From NCBI GenBank assembly GCA_024690635.1, contig JAILOW010000168.1, positions 1 to 10,936 of the forward strand: a DNA stretch of 10,936 bases, written 5' to 3'. The DNA comes from Butyrivibrio sp. GTDB taxonomy: Bacteria > Bacillota_A > Clostridia > Lachnospirales > Lachnospiraceae. A program made the translations under genes and the position numbers. Position 1 is the first letter of the stretch, and each line of letters opens with the position of its first letter. Under the pieces are notes generated by a model. It saw only the letters and a list, made by a program, of their open reading frames with translations. It had not been told where the DNA came from and did not search any database. Shown one piece after another: positions 1 through 8,452 of the stretch.

Positions 1-372
1 AAGGCTGCTCTTGGTGATGTAACTGATCAGGTTAAAGAGGTCAGCGGCGTTAAGCTTCTTGCAACTTCCGTAAAGGGCGTTGACATGAACGGACTTCGTG
101 ATCTTGGCGACCAGCTTAAGGCAAAGATCGGCGAAGGTGTAGTTGTTCTTATTTCAGAGGCTGACGGCAAGGTTAACCTTGTAACCATGGCTACTGACGG
201 AGCAATGGCTAAGGGGGCTCATGCAGGCAATCTTGTAAAAGCAATTGCACCCAAGGTTGGTGGTGGCGGCGGTGGTCGTCCCAACATGGCTCAGGCCGGC
301 GGTAAGAACCCTGCTGGTATCGCAGATGCACTTGCTGAAGCAGAGAAGGTACTCGGAGAGCAGATAAAATAA
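1..372 (+). CDS. alaS: Alanyl-tRNA synthetase, C-terminal end (partial)
   Basis: This is the last 123 codons of alanyl-tRNA synthetase, the cytosolic enzyme that charges tRNA-Ala; the 5' part lies outside the window. The reading frame is open from base 1 and ends at TAA 370-372. The visible part matches the C-Ala/DHHA1 region: a segment resembling VSGVKLLATSVKGVD, a strand-rich stretch (VVVLISEADGKVNLV), and the hallmark glycine-rich loop GGGGGGRPNMAQAGG followed by a closing helix (ALAEAEKVLGEQIK). In the family this domain binds the tRNA elbow and helps position tRNA for editing. No terminator hairpin is visible after the stop, and the rpsU promoter starts only about 10 bases later, so some read-through into rpsU is plausible. 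Catalytic and editing domains cannot be judged here. Confidence 0.95.
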   Translation, partial: KAALGDVTDQVKEVSGVKLLATSVKGVDMNGLRDLGDQLKAKIGEGVVVLISEADGKVNLVTMATDGAMAKGAHAGNLVKAIAPKVGGGGGGRPNMAQAGGKNPAGIADALAEAEKVLGEQIK

Positions 373-2972: not shown

Positions 2973-2979
2973 TTTTATG

Positions 2980-3017
2980 GGAGAATACCGAATTATTTTT
3001 GGTATTCTCCTTTTATT
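2980..3017 (+). terminator. Rho-independent terminator after scpB
   Basis: A 10-bp perfect stem, GGAGAATACC (2980-2989) with GGTATTCTCC (3001-3010), has an 11-base loop and is followed by TTTTATTT. The T-run overlaps the start of the next promoter. Confidence 0.88.
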
Positions 3018-3043
3018 TACTTGGTTTTATGGTATACTATACT
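3016..3043 (+). promoter_or_regulatory. Candidate promoter of the carboxyltransferase/Na+ pump operon
   Basis: TTTACT (3016-3021) and TATACT (3038-3043) are separated by 16 bases, giving a transcription start near 3050 and a leader of about 47 bases. A second TATACT at 3033-3038 overlaps the chosen -10 but has no suitable -35. The promoter begins inside the T-run of the scpB terminator. The leader is too short for a known riboswitch; it holds only a weak six-pair hairpin (AAAGTT/AGCTTT). Confidence 0.55.
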
Positions 3044-3096: not shown

Positions 3097-4527
3097 ATGA
3101 GTAGTTCTTCACAAGCGAGTCAAAGAATCAATGCTTTGCTCGATGAAAACAGTTTCGTTGAGATCGGCGCTTCTGTTACAGCCAGAAGCACAGATTTCAA
3201 TCTGAAACAGGAAGAGACACCCTCAGACGGTGTTGTTACCGGATACGGTGTCATCGACGGCAGTCTGGTCTATGTTTACAGCCAGGATGCATCAGTCCTC
3301 GGAGGTTCCGTAGGCGAGATGCATGCCAAAAAGATCGTTCGTCTTTATGATCTTGCTATAAAGACCGGATCACCCGTTATCGGACTTATTGATTCTGCAG
3401 GACTTCGTCTTCAGGAAGCAACTGATGCGCTTAATGCATTCGGTGAGATTTATCTCAAGCAGGCAGAGGCATCAGGAGTTGTTCCTCAGATCACAGCAGT
3501 ATTCGGAAGCTGCGGTGGCGGTCTTGCACTTATTCCTGCTATTACGGATTTCACATTCATGGAGTCCGGGAAAGGCAAGCTTTTTGTAAATTCCCCCAAT
3601 GCGCTTGAGGGCAATTACAAGGAGAAGTGCGATACTTCTGCAGCTGACTGGCAGAGCAGCAATACAGGCAATGTTGATGTAGTTGCTGATGAGGCTTCTG
3701 TTTACGCTCAGATCAGAGAACTTGTTTCTCTTCTTCCTTCCAATAACGAGGATGGTGATTCATTTGTAGAGTGTACCGACGATCTTAACAGAGCATGTGA
3801 GAATCTTGATGGCGCTACTGCAGATCCTTCCATCATTGCAAGACAGATCTCTGACAACGGAGTATTCTTCGAGACCAAGAGAGACTATGCAAAAGAGATG
3901 GTTACAGGATTTATCAAGCTTAACGGTTCAACTGTCGGCCTTGTAGGTAACAGATGCGCTACCTTTGATGAGAACGGCAAAGAGGCTGATAAGTTCGAAG
4001 ATAAGCTTACAGCTCATGGCTGTAACAAGGCTGCTGAGTTTGTAAACTTCTGCGATGCTTTTGATATTCCTGTTCTTACACTTACAAATGCTACAGGCTT
4101 TGCTTCATCTACATGTGATGAAAAGAATGTGGCTAAGGCTGCGGGCAGACTTGTATATGCACTTGCAAATGCAACAATTCCCAAGGTTAATGTTGTTACA
4201 GGCAAGGCCTTCGGAAGTGCTTATGTGATCATGAACTCCAAGGCTGTTGGTGCTGATATCACTATCAGCTGGCCTGATGCACAGATCGGATCCATGGATG
4301 CATCACTTGCAGCCAAGATCATCTGCGATGGCAAGGATGCAGAAACTGTATCCAAGGCTGCCGATGATTATGCTAAGCTTCAGAACAATGTTAAGAGCGC
4401 AGCCGCAAGAGGATATGTGGATGAGATCATCGAAGCTGCCGATACAAGAAAGTATGTGATCGGTGCTTTTGAGATGCTTTATACAAAGAGAGATCAGCGT
4501 CCTGCAAAGAAGCACGGAACAGTTTAA
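3097..4527 (+). CDS. Biotin-dependent acyl-CoA carboxyltransferase (12S/MmdA-like)
   Basis: This 476-residue cytosolic protein is a crotonase-fold carboxyltransferase of the PccB/MmdA/12S type, which moves a carboxyl group between biotin and an acyl-CoA. Family features include NSFVEIG (18-24), GVVTGYGVIDG (45-55), GSVGEMHAKKI (70-80), the N-terminal oxyanion-hole loop GSCGGGLALIPAITDF (137-152), FCDAFDIPVLTL (318-329) and KAFGSAY (370-376), ending in RPAKKHG. Gene order matches mmdA of methylmalonyl-CoA decarboxylase operons. It differs from typical MmdA (about 510 residues) by lacking roughly 40 N-terminal residues. It also has DSAGLRLQE where DSGGARIQE is usual, NATGF for DVPGF, GSAY for GGAY, and SMDASLA for MGPEGA. 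The substrate may be methylmalonyl-CoA, malonyl-CoA or another acyl-CoA; the family assignment is firm, the substrate is not. Its stop overlaps an upstream in-frame ATG of the next frame (TAATG). Confidence 0.9.
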   Translation: MSSSSQASQRINALLDENSFVEIGASVTARSTDFNLKQEETPSDGVVTGYGVIDGSLVYVYSQDASVLGGSVGEMHAKKIVRLYDLAIKTGSPVIGLIDSAGLRLQEATDALNAFGEIYLKQAEASGVVPQITAVFGSCGGGLALIPAITDFTFMESGKGKLFVNSPNALEGNYKEKCDTSAADWQSSNTGNVDVVADEASVYAQIRELVSLLPSNNEDGDSFVECTDDLNRACENLDGATADPSIIARQISDNGVFFETKRDYAKEMVTGFIKLNGSTVGLVGNRCATFDENGKEADKFEDKLTAHGCNKAAEFVNFCDAFDIPVLTLTNATGFASSTCDEKNVAKAAGRLVYALANATIPKVNVVTGKAFGSAYVIMNSKAVGADITISWPDAQIGSMDASLAAKIICDGKDAETVSKAADDYAKLQNNVKSAAARGYVDEIIEAADTRKYVIGAFEMLYTKRDQRPAKKHGTV

Positions 4528-4529
4528 TG

Positions 4530-4536
4530 AAGGGAG
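4530..4536 (+). promoter_or_regulatory. Ribosome binding site that sets the OadG-like start
   Basis: AAGGGAG lies 8 bases before the ATG at 4545. The earlier ATG at 4527, which overlaps the previous stop codon, has no comparable site and would put six extra residues before the signal peptide, so 4545 is preferred. Confidence 0.75.
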
Positions 4537-4544
4537 CACTCAAA

Positions 4545-5399
4545 ATGAAACATAAATTGTGGGTTTTGGGCGTGATGATCAGCTGTCTTCTTGGACTTAC
4601 TGCATGCGGCGCCACAGGCGCACAGGATAATGCTGCCGGAAGTAGCAGATATCCGTCCGAACTGTTTTCAAATGAAAGGGTCACTGATTACGTCAATTAC
4701 CTTGAAAATGACGTATTCGAGCAGTGGTTCCAAAAGGGAATAACTCCCGAGAATTTCGAAGAGAAGGCATATGTTTCACTTGCCATGAACTTCGATCAGA
4801 GTACCGGTCAGATCCGTATCGATGATGACTACTACAATGTTCATAAGTCAGGATACGACAGCTGGTACAAATCACTTAACGATCTTGGATATGGCTCCAA
4901 GGATTCCATTGCAGGTGATCTTAACGTTACTGACGTAAAGACTGAGATCAACGGCGACGGTGTACTTGTTGCTCATGCCACACTTCAGGGAACAAAGCGT
5001 TCTGCTCTCATGGAAGTTTACCTTGGCAATGACTTCAATCCTACAGATATCGGTGTTACGGTAAACAAGACCACAGGAGAGAAGCTCGAGAATGCCGGAC
5101 TTAATACTCTTCTCGGAATGGGTATGGCTTTCTCAATTCTTATTATCATTTCGCTTATCATTTCACTTTTCCCTGTGCTCTTTGGAACAGGCAGAAAAAA
5201 GAAGGAAAGTGACAAGGATATTGCTAAAAAGGCAATGGACAATACCATCAGCCAGATCGAAGAGCAGGAAGAACTTGTCGGTGATGCTGAACTTGTTGCG
5301 GTTATCGCAGCAGCCATTGCTGCCTATGAAGGCAGTGGTTCCACTGACGGATTCCGTGTAAGATCCATTAAAAAAGCTAAATCAAACTGGAAAAGATAA
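4545..5399 (+). CDS. Lipoprotein-type OadG/MmdD subunit of the Na+-pumping decarboxylase
   Basis: This 284-residue protein joins three parts. Residues 1-21 are a lipoprotein signal peptide with lipobox LTAC (cleavage before C21). Residues 22-186 form a mostly acidic extracytoplasmic domain (YPSELFSNERVTDYVNYLEN, TGQIRIDDDYY, VKTEINGDGVLVAHATLQ) that I cannot assign. Residues 187-213 are one membrane helix, followed by a cytosolic tail with RKKKESDKD and the OadG-like end AELVAVIAAAIAAYEGSGS...GFRVRSIKK. In characterised complexes the small gamma/delta subunit (OadG about 80, MmdD about 115 residues) holds the carboxyltransferase on the membrane beta subunit. The tail and the position between carboxyltransferase and biotin carrier point to the same job here. 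The large outside domain is extra compared with those subunits; it may sense or scaffold. The start is set by AAGGGAG. Confidence 0.82.
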   Translation: MKHKLWVLGVMISCLLGLTACGATGAQDNAAGSSRYPSELFSNERVTDYVNYLENDVFEQWFQKGITPENFEEKAYVSLAMNFDQSTGQIRIDDDYYNVHKSGYDSWYKSLNDLGYGSKDSIAGDLNVTDVKTEINGDGVLVAHATLQGTKRSALMEVYLGNDFNPTDIGVTVNKTTGEKLENAGLNTLLGMGMAFSILIIISLIISLFPVLFGTGRKKKESDKDIAKKAMDNTISQIEEQEELVGDAELVAVIAAAIAAYEGSGSTDGFRVRSIKKAKSNWKR

Positions 5400-5412
5400 A
5401 AAAACATATATC

Positions 5413-5440
5413 GAGCACGGAAACCATCAAGTCAGTGCTC
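5413..5440 (+). other. Short hairpin before the biotin-carrier gene
   Basis: GAGCAC (5413-5418) can pair with GTGCTC (5435-5440) around a 16-base loop, ending 4 bases before the AAAGGAG ribosome binding site. It has no T-run, so it is not a terminator. It might affect mRNA processing or the higher translation of the carrier, but a 6-bp stem is weak evidence. Confidence 0.3.
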
Positions 5441-5443
5441 TGT

Positions 5444-5451
5444 GAAAGGAG
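5444..5451 (+). promoter_or_regulatory. Ribosome binding site that sets the biotin-carrier start
   Basis: GAAAGGAG lies 5 bases before the ATG at 5457. A GTG at 5442 is in frame five codons earlier but overlaps this site and has no site of its own, so the ATG is the likely start. Confidence 0.8.
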
Positions 5452-5456
5452 ATACA

Positions 5457-5819
5457 ATGAAGAACTATACAATAACCGTTAACGGAAACGTATATGATGT
5501 AACAGTAGAAGAGGGCGCAGGTTCAGGAGCAGCTCCCGTAGCAGCTGCAGCTCCCGCTCCCAAGGCACCCGCAGCTCCTGCAAAGAAGGCTAGCGCAGGC
5601 GCAGGTTCAGTGAAGATCGAGGCAGGCGCAGCAGGAAAGGTTCTCAGAATCGATGCTAACGTTGGCCAGTCTGTAAAGAAGGGCGATACAGTTATTACTC
5701 TTGAGTCTATGAAGATGGAGATCCCTATGGTTGCTCCTTCAGACGGAACAGTAGCAAGCATCGACGTAGCTGCAGGTGATTCTGTTGAGGCAGGAAGAGT
5801 TCTGGCAACACTTAACTGA
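5457..5819 (+). CDS. Biotin carboxyl carrier subunit (1.3S/MmdC-like)
   Basis: This 120-residue protein is the free biotin carrier that shuttles the carboxyl group between the carboxyltransferases and the membrane pump. An N-terminal strand segment (MKNYTITVNGNVYDVTVEE, 1-19) resembles the start of the propionibacterial transcarboxylase 1.3S subunit. Residues 20-50 are a flexible Ala/Pro/Gly linker (GAAPVAAAAPAPKAPAAPA), typical of swinging-arm carriers. Residues 51-120 form the biotinyl domain with the site ESMKMEIP, in which K86 is the predicted biotinylated lysine. The residue before MKM is Ser, where Ala (AMKM) is most common; this should still be recognised by biotin ligase. It is the only carrier in the operon and so probably serves both carboxyltransferases encoded with it. 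A promoter is not needed, since it lies within the operon. Confidence 0.92.
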   Translation: MKNYTITVNGNVYDVTVEEGAGSGAAPVAAAAPAPKAPAAPAKKASAGAGSVKIEAGAAGKVLRIDANVGQSVKKGDTVITLESMKMEIPMVAPSDGTVASIDVAAGDSVEAGRVLATLN

Positions 5820-5846
5820 TGTCTAGTATTTCAATAAATAGAGAAA

Positions 5847-5852
5847 TGAGGA
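5847..5852 (+). promoter_or_regulatory. Ribosome binding site of the beta-subunit gene
   Basis: TGAGGA lies 6 bases before the ATG at 5859. It is a moderate match, weaker than the sites before the first gene and the carrier. Confidence 0.5.
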
Positions 5853-5858
5853 TATAAA

Positions 5859-7001
5859 ATGGATTACGTTGTTAATACATTATCTAATCTCTGGCATCAG
5901 ACCGCATTTACAACCATGTCACCCGGCAATTATATAATGGTTGTCGTAGCGCTTATTTTCTTGTATCTTGCGATTGCCAAGGGATTCGAGCCACTTCTTC
6001 TGGTACCGATCTCATTCGGTATGCTTTTAGTAAATATTTATCCCGACATCATGGCTAAGCCTGTTGGAGGAGCAGCCGGAGGACTTTTGCATTATTTCTA
6101 TATTCTTGATGAATATGCAATCCTTCCTTCACTTATCTTCCTTGGTGTAGGTGCCATGACTGACTTTGGACCGCTTATTGCCAATCCCATCAGTTTCCTT
6201 ATGGGTGCCGGCGCACAGTTCGGTATTTTTGCCGCTTACTTTATGGCGATCTTCTTCGGATTTAACGATCAGCAGGCAGCTGCTGTATCTATTATCGGTG
6301 GTGCTGACGGACCTACTTCAATCTTCCTTGCAAGTAAGCTCCATCAGACATCAATATTAGGACCCATTGCCGTTGCGGCTTATTCCTACATGGCACTGGT
6401 TCCCATGATCCAGCCTCCTATCATGAAGGCTCTTACAACAGAAAGAGAGAGAAAGATCAGAATGCAGCAGCTCAGGGAAGTTTCCAAGCTTGAGAAGATA
6501 CTTTTCCCTGTTATCGTTACAATCGTTGTAAGTATGATCCTTCCTACAACAGCTCCTCTTATCGGTATGCTTATGCTTGGTAACCTCTTCAGAGAGTCAG
6601 GAGTTGTTCGTCAGCTTCAGGAGACTGCATCCAATGCTCTTATGTACATCGTTGTTATCCTCCTTGGTACTTCCGTAGGAGCAACAACAAGTGCTGAGGC
6701 TTTCCTTAACACAACTACACTTATCATCGTTGTGCTTGGCCTTATTGCCTTTGCTTTTGGTACAGCAGCCGGATGCCTTCTTGGTAAACTCCTTTGCTTC
6801 ATCACAAGAGGAAAGATCAATCCTCTTATCGGATCAGCCGGAGTTTCTGCCGTTCCTATGGCGGCCAGAGTATCACAGAAGGTTGGCGCAGAGTATGATC
6901 CTTCAAACTTCCTTTTGATGCACGCTATGGGACCTAACGTTGCCGGTGTTATCGGAACAGCGGTAGTTGCAGGTACATTCATGGCTGTATTCGGAGTTTG
7001 A
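5859..7001 (+). CDS. Na+-translocating decarboxylase beta subunit (OadB/MmdB/GcdB family)
   Basis: This 380-residue polytopic membrane protein is the pump that decarboxylates carboxybiotin and exports Na+. Family motifs are clear: [10 protein letters not shown] (148-156, D150), [12 protein letters not shown] (176-187), [20 protein letters not shown] (321-340) and [20 protein letters not shown] (350-369). Within the third motif N321, G325, S330 and R337 have the same spacing as N373, G377, S382 and R389 of Klebsiella OadB, and D150 corresponds to D203, residues known to matter for Na+ binding and transport. The protein should therefore be a working pump. It is somewhat shorter than Klebsiella OadB (433), mainly at the N-terminus, and close to MmdB/GcdB length. 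It sits between the carrier and the oxaloacetate carboxyltransferase genes in the operon. Confidence 0.94.
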
Positions 7002-7022
7002 TAAAAAAGAACTAATAAAAAC

Positions 7023-7030
7023 AGAAAGGA
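7023..7030 (+). promoter_or_regulatory. Ribosome binding site of the OadA-like gene
   Basis: AGAAAGGA lies 9 bases before the ATG at 7040, in the 38-base gap after the beta-subunit gene. No hairpin is visible in that gap. Confidence 0.6.
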
Positions 7031-7039
7031 TAAATAGAT

Positions 7040-8452
7040 ATGGCAGAATTAGAGAGAAAGCCGGTTCGTATCAATGAGACTGTCCTTCGTGATGCACATC
7101 AGTCTCTTATCGCAACAAGAATGCCCACCGAAGTTATGTTGCCGATCATCGATACAATGGACAAGGTTGGATATAATGCAGTTGAGTGCTGGGGCGGTGC
7201 TACATTTGATGCCTGCATGAGATTCCTTAAGGAAGATCCCTGGGAGAGACTTCGTAAGCTTCGTGACGGATTCAAGAACACCAAGCTTCAGATGCTCCTT
7301 CGTGGACAGAACATCCTTGGATACAAGCACTATCCCGATGACGTAGTAGATTACTTCGTACAGAAGTCTATCGCTAACGGTATTGATGTTATCAGAATCT
7401 TTGACTGTCTTAACGACCTCAGAAACCTTGAGGCTTCTGTTAAGGCTTGTAAGAAAGAGGGCGGACATGCTCAGATCGCTCTTGCTTACACACTTGGAGA
7501 TGCTTATACAGAAGAGTACTGGATGAGCGTTGCCAAGGACATCGAGAACATGGGAGCAGATTCCATCTGTATCAAGGATATGGCAGGACTTCTCCTTCCT
7601 TATGAGGCTGAAAAGCTTGTTAAGGCTCTTAAGAGCGCAACCAAGCTTCCTATCGACCTTCATACACATTACACATCAGGTGTTGCCAGCATGACTTACA
7701 TGAAGGCAGCTGAGGCAGGCGTTGATATCATCGACTGCGCTATTTCACCTTTTGCTCTCGGAACATCTCAGCCTGCTACTGAGGTTATGGTTGAAGCCTT
7801 CAAGGGACAGCCTTTCGAGACAGGACTTGATCAGAAGCTTCTTGCAAAGATCGCTGATCACTTCAGACCTTACAGAGAAGAGTGCCTTAAGAGCGGACTT
7901 ATGGATCCTAAGGTTCTTGGTGTTAACATCAAGACTCTTATGTATCAGGTTCCCGGCGGTATGCTTTCCAACATGGTTAGCCAGTTGAAAGAGCAGAACG
8001 CAAGCGACAAGTACGATACAGTGCTTGAGGAGATCCCTCAGGTTCGTAAGGACTTTGGTGAGCCTCCGCTTGTTACACCTTCTTCACAGATCGTTGGTAC
8101 ACAGGCTGTTATGAACGTACTTATGGGTGAGAGATACAAGGTTGCTACAGACCAGACCAAGGATCTTCTTGCCGGTGAGTATGGTAAGACAATCAAGCCT
8201 TTCAATCCCGAAGTTCAGAAGAAGATCATCGGCGACAGAGAGGTTATCACATGCAGACCTGCTGATAGGCTTGAGCCCAAGCTTGCTCAGTTTGAAGAAG
8301 AGGTTAAGCAGTGGAAGAAGCAGGATGAGGATGTTCTCTCATATGCATTGTTCCCTCAGGTTGCTACAGACTTCTTCAAATATCGTCTTGCTCAGGAGAC
8401 CAATGTTGATGTATCTGCTGCAGATACCAAGAACGGTGCTTATCCTGTTTGA
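7040..8452 (+). CDS. Oxaloacetate decarboxylase alpha / pyruvate carboxyltransferase subunit (OadA/5S-like, no biotin domain)
   Basis: This 470-residue cytosolic protein is a TIM-barrel carboxyltransferase of the OadA/PycB/5S family, which moves a carboxyl group between oxaloacetate/pyruvate and biotin. Visible motifs are TVLRDAHQSLIATRM (metal ligand D18), WGGATFD (51-57), LLRGQN (86-91), CIKDMAGLL (K179, the lysine carbamylated in the family), DLHTHYTSG (H208 and H210, metal ligands), and C-terminal PGGMLSNMVSQL and VTPSSQIVGTQAV. Klebsiella OadA is about 590 residues because it ends in a biotinyl domain; this protein stops before that domain, as 5S of propionibacterial transcarboxylase does, and must rely on the separate carrier encoded upstream. 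It is the last gene of the operon; a terminator begins 17 bases after its stop. It may run as oxaloacetate decarboxylase with the Na+ pump, or as half of a transcarboxylase. Confidence 0.93.
   Translation: MAELERKPVRINETVLRDAHQSLIATRMPTEVMLPIIDTMDKVGYNAVECWGGATFDACMRFLKEDPWERLRKLRDGFKNTKLQMLLRGQNILGYKHYPDDVVDYFVQKSIANGIDVIRIFDCLNDLRNLEASVKACKKEGGHAQIALAYTLGDAYTEEYWMSVAKDIENMGADSICIKDMAGLLLPYEAEKLVKALKSATKLPIDLHTHYTSGVASMTYMKAAEAGVDIIDCAISPFALGTSQPATEVMVEAFKGQPFETGLDQKLLAKIADHFRPYREECLKSGLMDPKVLGVNIKTLMYQVPGGMLSNMVSQLKEQNASDKYDTVLEEIPQVRKDFGEPPLVTPSSQIVGTQAVMNVLMGERYKVATDQTKDLLAGEYGKTIKPFNPEVQKKIIGDREVITCRPADRLEPKLAQFEEEVKQWKKQDEDVLSYALFPQVATDFFKYRLAQETNVDVSAADTKNGAYPV

Follow-up and report, generated by a model that had tools for sequence, protein, structure and literature searches.

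Gene content of the operon

The stretch analysed here is a contig of 10,936 nucleotides from Butyrivibrio sp. (JAILOW010000168.1, assembly GCA_024690635.1; hereafter, the window), which holds a Butyrivibrio-type operon of five intact, closely packed genes on the plus strand at positions 3097-8452. The first gene (3097..4527) encodes an MmdA/12S-like acyl-CoA carboxyltransferase of 476 amino acids (aa) from a divergent Lachnospiraceae subfamily (PF01039, E 1.8e-107), the top PDB match of which is 1vrg, named propionyl-CoA carboxylase beta. It is followed by an OadG/MmdD-like subunit of 290 aa (4527..5399; PF04277, E 5.5e-18 at residues 188-268) and by a 1.3S/MmdC-like biotin carboxyl carrier (5442..5819, likely ATG at 5457; PF00364, E 7.2e-17), the biotin Lys86 of which, numbered from that ATG, has its codon at 5712-5714. 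OadB, the carboxybiotin decarboxylase and Na+ pump subunit (5859..7001, 380 aa; PF03977, E 3e-150), is encoded between the carrier gene and the 5S-type gene oadA (7040..8452), which encodes an OadA/5S-like oxaloacetate (pyruvate) carboxyltransferase of 470 aa (PF02436, E 3e-57, HMGL-like). The PF01039 and PF02436 types of carboxyltransferase are both present within this one operon, and the initial annotation, which had described two carboxyltransferase types, one carrier with its site at K86, one pump and one OadG-like subunit, agrees with the five intact genes.

The score of OadB exceeded the TIGR01109 cut-off, and the protein aligned with the solved OadB 6iva, including the GGADGPT and GPNVAGVIG motifs. 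OadA scored 751.8 bits against the cut-off of 718 of NF008985/PRK12331 ('oxaloacetate decarboxylase subunit alpha') and 552.2 against the 5S NCBIfam cut-off of 827, thus passing the former and falling below the latter. It aligned over nearly its whole length to the 5S subunit 1rqb, OadA 2nx9 and pyruvate carboxylase subunit beta 5ks8, and carries the RDAHQS, KDMAG and HxH motifs. As had been annotated, OadA has no biotin domain of its own: its C-terminus comes right after the PYC_OADA domain with no MKM, and none of the 66 related OadA proteins checked contained E[SA]MKM. The motifs of the carboxyltransferases, carrier and OadB are read here in their customary roles in these families. No biotin carboxylase was detected within the operon by the domain search, no RNA family reached the gathering thresholds in the window, and no plasmid copies were found in megablast mode.

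Features of the OadG-like and MmdA-like subunits

The earlier description of the second product as OadG-like stands for its PF04277 domain, which is above the family cut-off (TIGR01195, 31.1 bits, under its cut-off of 36.05), and has to be extended: in the alignment, the protein is a lipobox-bearing fusion (Cys27) with a large extracytoplasmic region of ~155 residues and a conserved C-terminal tail. In the structure model, one predicted long helix at residues 183-219 holds the transmembrane part. The extracytoplasmic part is confidently predicted as an alpha/beta domain (block values of the predicted local distance difference test, 83-95; residues 41-180). A Foldseek search with this region returned nothing at E <= 0.001; NTF2-like folds headed the list at about 0.05, a hint only, and a Pfam search with it gave nothing convincing. 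Shorter OadG versions were seen in other Lachnospiraceae.

Similarly, the MmdA-like label is correct with respect to the PF01039 carboxyltransferase family and too narrow with respect to the subfamily, the window MmdA scoring 404.3 bits against a cut-off of 998.8 for TIGR01117 (mmdA). Identity to 1vrg is 41%; for clostridial 12S proteins other than those of its clade, the value is 35-44%. In the tree, the window MmdA, 11 other Lachnospiraceae copies and the copy of genome G074 (genomes and loci are given below by G and L numbers) formed a well-supported clade on a long branch, separate from the other 12S proteins in the comparison, among them those of other five-gene clusters. The oxyanion turns are present, the second Gly of YGGAY being replaced by Ser (FGSAY). 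Following the second oxyanion turn, the window MmdA and 10 of the 11 other aligned window-type copies have Val (Thr in L075), and most clostridial 12S proteins and 1vrg have Ile; the rule presumably linking this position with acetyl or propionyl substrates was not used to assign a substrate, as Val is also found in 3n6r_B.

Conservation among related loci

Related loci were the best 80 of 556 confirmed stretches, chosen by MmdA alone, which is 70-88% identical to that of the window. Conservation of the five-gene order had been set as a check by the initial annotation, and 74 of the 80 loci hold all five genes in identical order and strand; the other six (L001, L018, L028, L033, L052 and L076) break off at a contig end or close to one, ahead of the last gene or genes. 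The five-gene layout is therefore confirmed to be beyond chance. Among the 120 matches listed of 7987, the source-named MmdA homologues were from Butyrivibrio and the remainder bore only a generic enzyme name.

The motifs, counted in copies that cover 85% or more of the window protein, were also retained. GxCGGG of MmdA (window 137-142) was kept in 80/80 loci, and 78/80 have the GSAY turn (near 372-376); the carrier MKM was kept in 79/79 relatives, GGADGPT and GPNxAGVIG of OadB in 74/75 and 69/75, respectively, and, in OadA, HxH in 66/66 and RDAHQS and KDMAG each in 62/66. In 49 loci (L032-L080), identity to the window was ~70-73% for MmdA, 76% (median) for OadA and 29-39% for OadG. OadA is in two pieces in L064 and the start of MmdA is split off in L072, each reflecting a disrupted gene or an assembly error.

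Other layouts were also found. A 12S-carrier-OadB arrangement without OadA occurs in L112 and L113, 12S-OadB in L111 and carrier-OadB-OadA without MmdA in L125-L127, and both carboxyltransferases without OadB between them were present in ten loci (L104, L105, L114-L116, L119 and L121-L124). In L101, L104 and L105, an opposite-strand gene of ~212-224 aa, with QIDDAGSGS near the start of its product, adjoins the 3' end of oadA, and frames of similar length stand at this position in several other clostridial two-carboxyltransferase clusters.

Biotin carboxylase, carriers and carboxyltransferases in 26 relatives

We selected 26 of the genomes bearing the 80 loci as a panel. Biotin carboxylase (PF02785) was present in ten, which are Butyrivibrio genomes with an MmdA 87-88% identical to that of the window, and was found in 0 of the remaining 16, the MmdA of which is 70-78% identical, the control search detecting the enzyme in 13 of the 14 known genomes. 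Carriers with a strong PF00364 match (>=56 bits) numbered two in each of the ten and one in each of the 16, and one further weak, partial match (~21-27 bits) occurred in each of seven panel genomes. In the ten, which bear acetyl-CoA carboxylase, the second strong carrier is of the AccB type and lies beside AccC. The sole strong carrier of the 16 is on the contig of the operon, within ~2.4 kb of mmdA. The suggestion that there are no separate carriers thus holds across the panel, apart from the AccB-type carrier that the ten closest genomes add beside AccC.

PF02436 gave exactly one match, of the OadA type, in 26/26 panel genomes, and no pyruvate carboxylase was found beside OadA by this search in any of the 26. 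A second PF01039 carboxyltransferase besides MmdA was present in 25 of the 26, including 15 of the 16 without biotin carboxylase. In the ten closest genomes, AccD/AccA matches lie on the AccC contig besides MmdA (one stretch with internal stops in G006), and three of these genomes have extra carboxyltransferase-like matches. Among the others, G011-G014 have AccD and AccA halves (PF01039), G015, G016, G022, G023 and G025 have one long PF01039 frame besides MmdA, G017-G021 and G024 carry another 12S protein of full length, and G026 has only the window-type MmdA. FabD was found in 25/26 panel genomes (15/16 of those without biotin carboxylase) and was not found in G026. The methylmalonyl-CoA mutase search (PF01642) was negative in all 26, the same search finding mutase in 8 of 14 known control genomes.

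ATP-dependent phosphoenolpyruvate carboxykinase (ATP-PEPCK) matched strongly in 13 panel genomes and in two pieces in G002. In G015-G026, a divergent PEPCK-like frame of ~571-584 aa (weak PF01293; e.g., L131:3201-4916 in G018) stands where the 14 other panel genomes match ATP-PEPCK strongly.

The fatty-acid operons gave a corresponding picture. G010 has fabK-fabD-fabG-fabF-accB-(fabZ-like)-accC-accD-accA. In nine of the 16 genomes without biotin carboxylase, accDA is part of the fatty-acid operon, where neither accB nor accC was recognised: in G011-G014, the split genes accD-accA adjoin fabH-fabK-fabD, and in G015, G016, G022, G023 and G025, fabK-fabD-fabG-fabF-fabZ is directly followed by a fused AccDA. 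The fab operons of these nine genomes thus have the carboxyltransferase in its usual place, with the carrier and biotin carboxylase missing. The G016 fusion and the G014 split genes, the only ones scored, exceeded the cut-offs of NCBIfam accD and TIGR00513 accA. The fab operons of G017, G018, G020 and G021 have no acc genes, and in G017-G021 and G024, the stretches fetched around the lone 12S gene showed no recognisable carrier gene. In agreement with the panel pattern, the portion of PMC4478896 available to us gives 62 butyrivibrio draft genomes, all with oxaloacetate decarboxylase, and acetyl-CoA carboxylase subunits in 36 to 61 of them.

Distribution in the class Clostridia

A wider sample, filtered at a completeness of 95, comprised 253 genomes of the class to which G010 (B. 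hungatei) belongs, Clostridia in the NCBI taxonomy. The search for biotin carboxylase was negative in 157 of the 253; the enzyme was free-standing in 78 and only of the PYC type in 18. OadA and pyruvate carboxylase were separated by E-value and frame length, and no PYC-type match occurred in any class genome without biotin carboxylase. PF01039 was present in 120 of the 157, and 119 of these 120 have an OadA-type carboxyltransferase. This co-occurrence of OadA with acyl-CoA carboxyltransferases kept in the absence of biotin carboxylase lies outside the window and is the most interesting part of the analysis. OadA was found in seven of the 37 genomes lacking both biotin carboxylase and PF01039, which are possible fatty-acid auxotrophs or reduced genomes. 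All 78 genomes with a free-standing biotin carboxylase have PF01039, and 39 of them have OadA, a count touched by the rule that a second PF02436 match beside a best match of the PYC type was taken as OadA.

A full-length MmdA-type protein together with OadA occurred in 119 genomes without free-standing AccC (108 with no biotin carboxylase and 11 with the PYC type only; a set different from the 119 above, which have PF01039 and OadA and no biotin carboxylase) and in 30 with it, and the pair was missing in 56 and 48, respectively (Fisher p 1.5e-5, kinship ignored). The five-gene layout was present in at least 32 class genomes, 29 of them without biotin carboxylase, and 24 of the 29 have a single PF01039 match; for the five-gene layout, these numbers are minima, and those for other layouts are inexact, G008, G010 and G074 having been sorted as lacking OadB in the cluster, where they do have it.

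Among the 119 genomes with both kinds of carboxyltransferase and no biotin carboxylase, exactly one PF00364 match was found in 29, more in 89 and none in one (G042), this family also covering lipoyl and other domains. G042 has OadA, OadB and an AccDA-strength PF01039 match, with a carrier that is missing, divergent or unassembled. Three genomes (G264, G091 and G032) have carrier-OadB-OadA without MmdA in the fetched stretch and AccD/A-strength PF01039 elsewhere, and biotin carboxylase was not found in them; they were not counted as one-carrier cases, as they have two, two and three PF00364 matches, respectively, and a leftover AccB is possible. Very divergent 12S-like carboxyltransferases (25-27% to canonical 12S) lie beside a carrier in L129 (G130) and L130 (G165), in the latter also beside OadA, and both genomes are without biotin carboxylase. 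In the control set, Thermotoga maritima has PF01039, PF02436 and PF03977 and no PF02785 match, in line with PMC3199775, which, in the part available, reports no biotin carboxylase of acetyl-CoA carboxylase in Thermotogales.

Flanking regions

The operon is flanked by scpB on one side and by a gene for a YfhO-type membrane protein on the other. The scpB gene was present in 73 of the 80 related loci, a gap of some kilobases to mmdA being frequent in non-Butyrivibrio loci. Between scpB and the operon lies a terminator-like hairpin on the plus strand (2979..3011; 14-pair stem, T-rich tail), followed by a promoter-like site upstream of mmdA (3016..3043, plus strand), both being consensus matches only. 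The latter lies in a TATACTATA...TTGCG block that recurs upstream of this gene in further Butyrivibrio loci. The region holds 11 promoter-like sites against 10.0 expected from shuffles, a number not above expectation.

Discussion

Gene content, gene order, retained motifs, one strong carrier per hub and no detectable biotin carboxylase in 16 of the 26 panel genomes are observed. From these, we propose, with a probability of about 0.6, that the operon encodes an ATP-free, membrane-attached carboxybiotin hub shared by OadA, MmdA and OadB and, in relatives without biotin carboxylase, by AccDA or a lone 12S protein as well. OadA may move the carboxyl group of oxaloacetate to biotin on K86, or unload the carrier onto pyruvate, as members of its family do. 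The MmdA-like carboxyltransferase may pass the carboxyl group to an acyl-CoA, or act in reverse; as net physiology, the acyl-CoA:pyruvate transfer envisaged in the initial annotation is putative. OadB would decarboxylate carboxybiotin with export of Na+ and, when reversed by the Na+ gradient, may help to load the carrier, judging from the OadB family. OadG would hold the carboxyltransferases and the pump together, a role suggested by a passage on the gamma subunit in PMC7274780. In the 16 genomes, the operon's carrier appears to be the only evident carboxybiotin donor; since the carboxyltransferases outside the operon have no other strong carrier, it looks like a shared, genome-wide resource. 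There, it would probably also serve AccDA or the lone 12S protein, no alternative donor being evident, and malonyl-CoA would come from oxaloacetate or the Na+ gradient with no direct use of ATP. The panel genomes of the window's clade also have a complete acetyl-CoA carboxylase and keep the hub beside it. Complex formation, shared use of the carrier, the direction of transfer and every substrate are what we infer.

More tentatively, and with somewhat less than even odds, the carrier of the pump might be a cell-wide carboxyl currency in much of the class Clostridia, feeding detached carboxyltransferases, including AccDA, and so forming an ATP-free, Na+-coupled acetyl-CoA carboxylase. If true, this would explain malonyl-CoA synthesis in Clostridia without detectable biotin carboxylase, 157 of the 253 sampled, and lipid synthesis would then depend on oxaloacetate and the sodium gradient instead of drawing directly on ATP. 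The orphan AccDA of the nine panel genomes in which the sole strong carrier is that of the pump would make the idea testable with a few purified proteins.

Several results weigh against the proposed hub. The weakest point is that the window-type MmdA need not be the malonyl-CoA-forming enzyme, because it forms its own clade and a second carboxyltransferase accompanies it in 25 of the 26 panel genomes. The ten closest genomes carry AccC and AccB/AccDA on one contig, so the hub is not needed there for malonyl-CoA. The ATP-PEPCK matches of 12 panel genomes (G015-G026) are weak, which leaves the supply of oxaloacetate in doubt. Gene absence can reflect draft assemblies, the single carrier holds for the panel and not for the class, and the association with OadA in the class is uncorrected for relatedness. 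FabT and FapR sites are palindromes, and no FabT-like or FapR-like palindrome was found when the 250 bases preceding mmdA were scanned, both in the window and at 16 loci. Among four fatty-acid operons scanned from start points judged by eye (L085, L092, L100 and L106), FabT-like sites occurred only in L085, so the palindrome scan does not support co-regulation in Lachnospiraceae. Finally, the papers listed in literature searches (titles and abstract openings, few subscription journals) yielded no biochemistry of a two-carboxyltransferase pump complex, including no purified two-carboxyltransferase Na+ pump and no AccDA fed by an oxaloacetate decarboxylase carrier.

Three other explanations were considered. 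The operon might encode two Na+-pumping decarboxylases with a common carrier and pump, OadA acting on oxaloacetate and MmdA on one carboxyacyl-CoA, at different times and with no meaningful transfer between the carboxyltransferases. OadB is well conserved and pumps with a single carboxyltransferase exist (L111-L113 without OadA, L125-L127 without MmdA), but carboxyl groups should in any case pass between two carboxyltransferases that use one reversible carrier, ten loci have both of them with no OadB between, and methylmalonyl-CoA from the mutase route is missing in 26/26 panel genomes; we regard this explanation as unlikely. It is still less probable that the operon encodes an ordinary oxaloacetate decarboxylase Na+ pump in which MmdA is a catalytically poor scaffold, like the 12S core that holds the carrier and 5S. 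Such a role would suit the divergence of MmdA, with the Gly-to-Ser replacement in the YGGAY turn, its long branch and the second carboxyltransferase in 25/26 panel genomes; against it, MmdA in L032-L080 is nearly as conserved as OadA and far more so than OadG, and GxCGGG is kept in 80/80 loci, pointing to purifying selection on a likely enzyme. The resemblance of the subunits to MmdA-D-C-B and to transcarboxylase would fit a methylmalonyl-CoA decarboxylase or transcarboxylase of the succinate-to-propionate pathway; with mutase in 0/26 panel genomes (control 8/14) and MmdA far under the TIGR01117 cut-off, this is disfavoured as very improbable.

Comparison with known systems

The transcarboxylase of Propionibacterium consists of 12S, 5S and 1.3S subunits, with no biotin carboxylase. 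By homology, the window operon shares with it a 12S-type carboxyltransferase, a 5S-type carboxyltransferase and a separate 1.3S-like carrier; it differs in adding OadB and OadG, in its divergent 12S, in a 5S below the NCBIfam cut-off and in the lack of a mutase link in the 26 panel genomes. With the Na+-translocating oxaloacetate decarboxylase, it has in common the OadA-type carboxyltransferase, the OadB pump and the OadG-like subunit, whereas its carrier is separate, an acyl-CoA carboxyltransferase is added and its OadG is a 290-aa lipoprotein-type fusion. The methylmalonyl- and glutaconyl-CoA decarboxylase pumps share with the window a separate carrier, a pump and the A-D-C-B gene order; the window operon differs from the MmdA-D-C-B pumps in its additional OadA, in an MmdA under the curated cut-off and in the lack of mutase in the panel. 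Known Na+-translocating biotin decarboxylases have a single carboxyltransferase type, and this operon has two. Reversal of such a pump with pyruvate and acetyl-CoA as acceptors was reportedly the subject, by its title, of a study by Dimroth and Hilpert in 1984, which the portion available of PMC7274780 cites for the reversibility of such pumps. In the portion available of PMC8473912, the values per oxaloacetate are about -30 kJ/mol and a maximum of 2 Na+.

The initial annotation had allowed that such clusters may already be known. Clusters of two carboxyltransferases and a carrier are indeed in print for Clostridia (PMC7764203, PMC7071700; putative in PMC5414155), the pump being undiscussed in the passages available. 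Strain BL-4 has a cluster of 12S, 5S and 1.3S-like genes, for which the passage in PMC7764203 identifies no mutase candidate. The fused transcarboxylase of Giardia (Jordan et al. 2003) likewise combines an acyl-CoA carboxyltransferase, a pyruvate-type carboxyltransferase and a biotin domain; unlike the window operon, it is one polypeptide, no pump part being mentioned in the passage in PMC8700996. For Clostridium thermocellum, according to the part available, gap filling in the model of PMC2852388 makes the carboxyl transferase Cthe_0699 the acetyl-CoA carboxylase and gives the role of biotin carboxylase to a carbamoyl-phosphate synthase. The operon of Caldicellulosiruptor bescii described in the accessible part of PMC7071700 encodes, besides a hypothetical protein and a biotin carrier, a methylmalonyl-CoA carboxyl transferase and an oxaloacetate decarboxylase. 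It resembles the window operon in having both carboxyltransferase types and one carrier and, compared by this description only, differs in a gene list without OadB. According to the same source, FapR binds malonyl-CoA, and in a FapR-lacking strain this operon was up 3.6-3.7 log2 in glycerol and 1.6-2.2 in glucose and NaCl. As presented in the available text of PMC5414155, the C. thermocellum model, lacking a standard acetyl-CoA carboxylase, uses a putative four-gene transcarboxylase for malonyl-CoA, and a proposed malonyl-CoA role is thus common to the C. bescii operon and the putative transcarboxylase of C. thermocellum (PMC7071700, PMC5414155).

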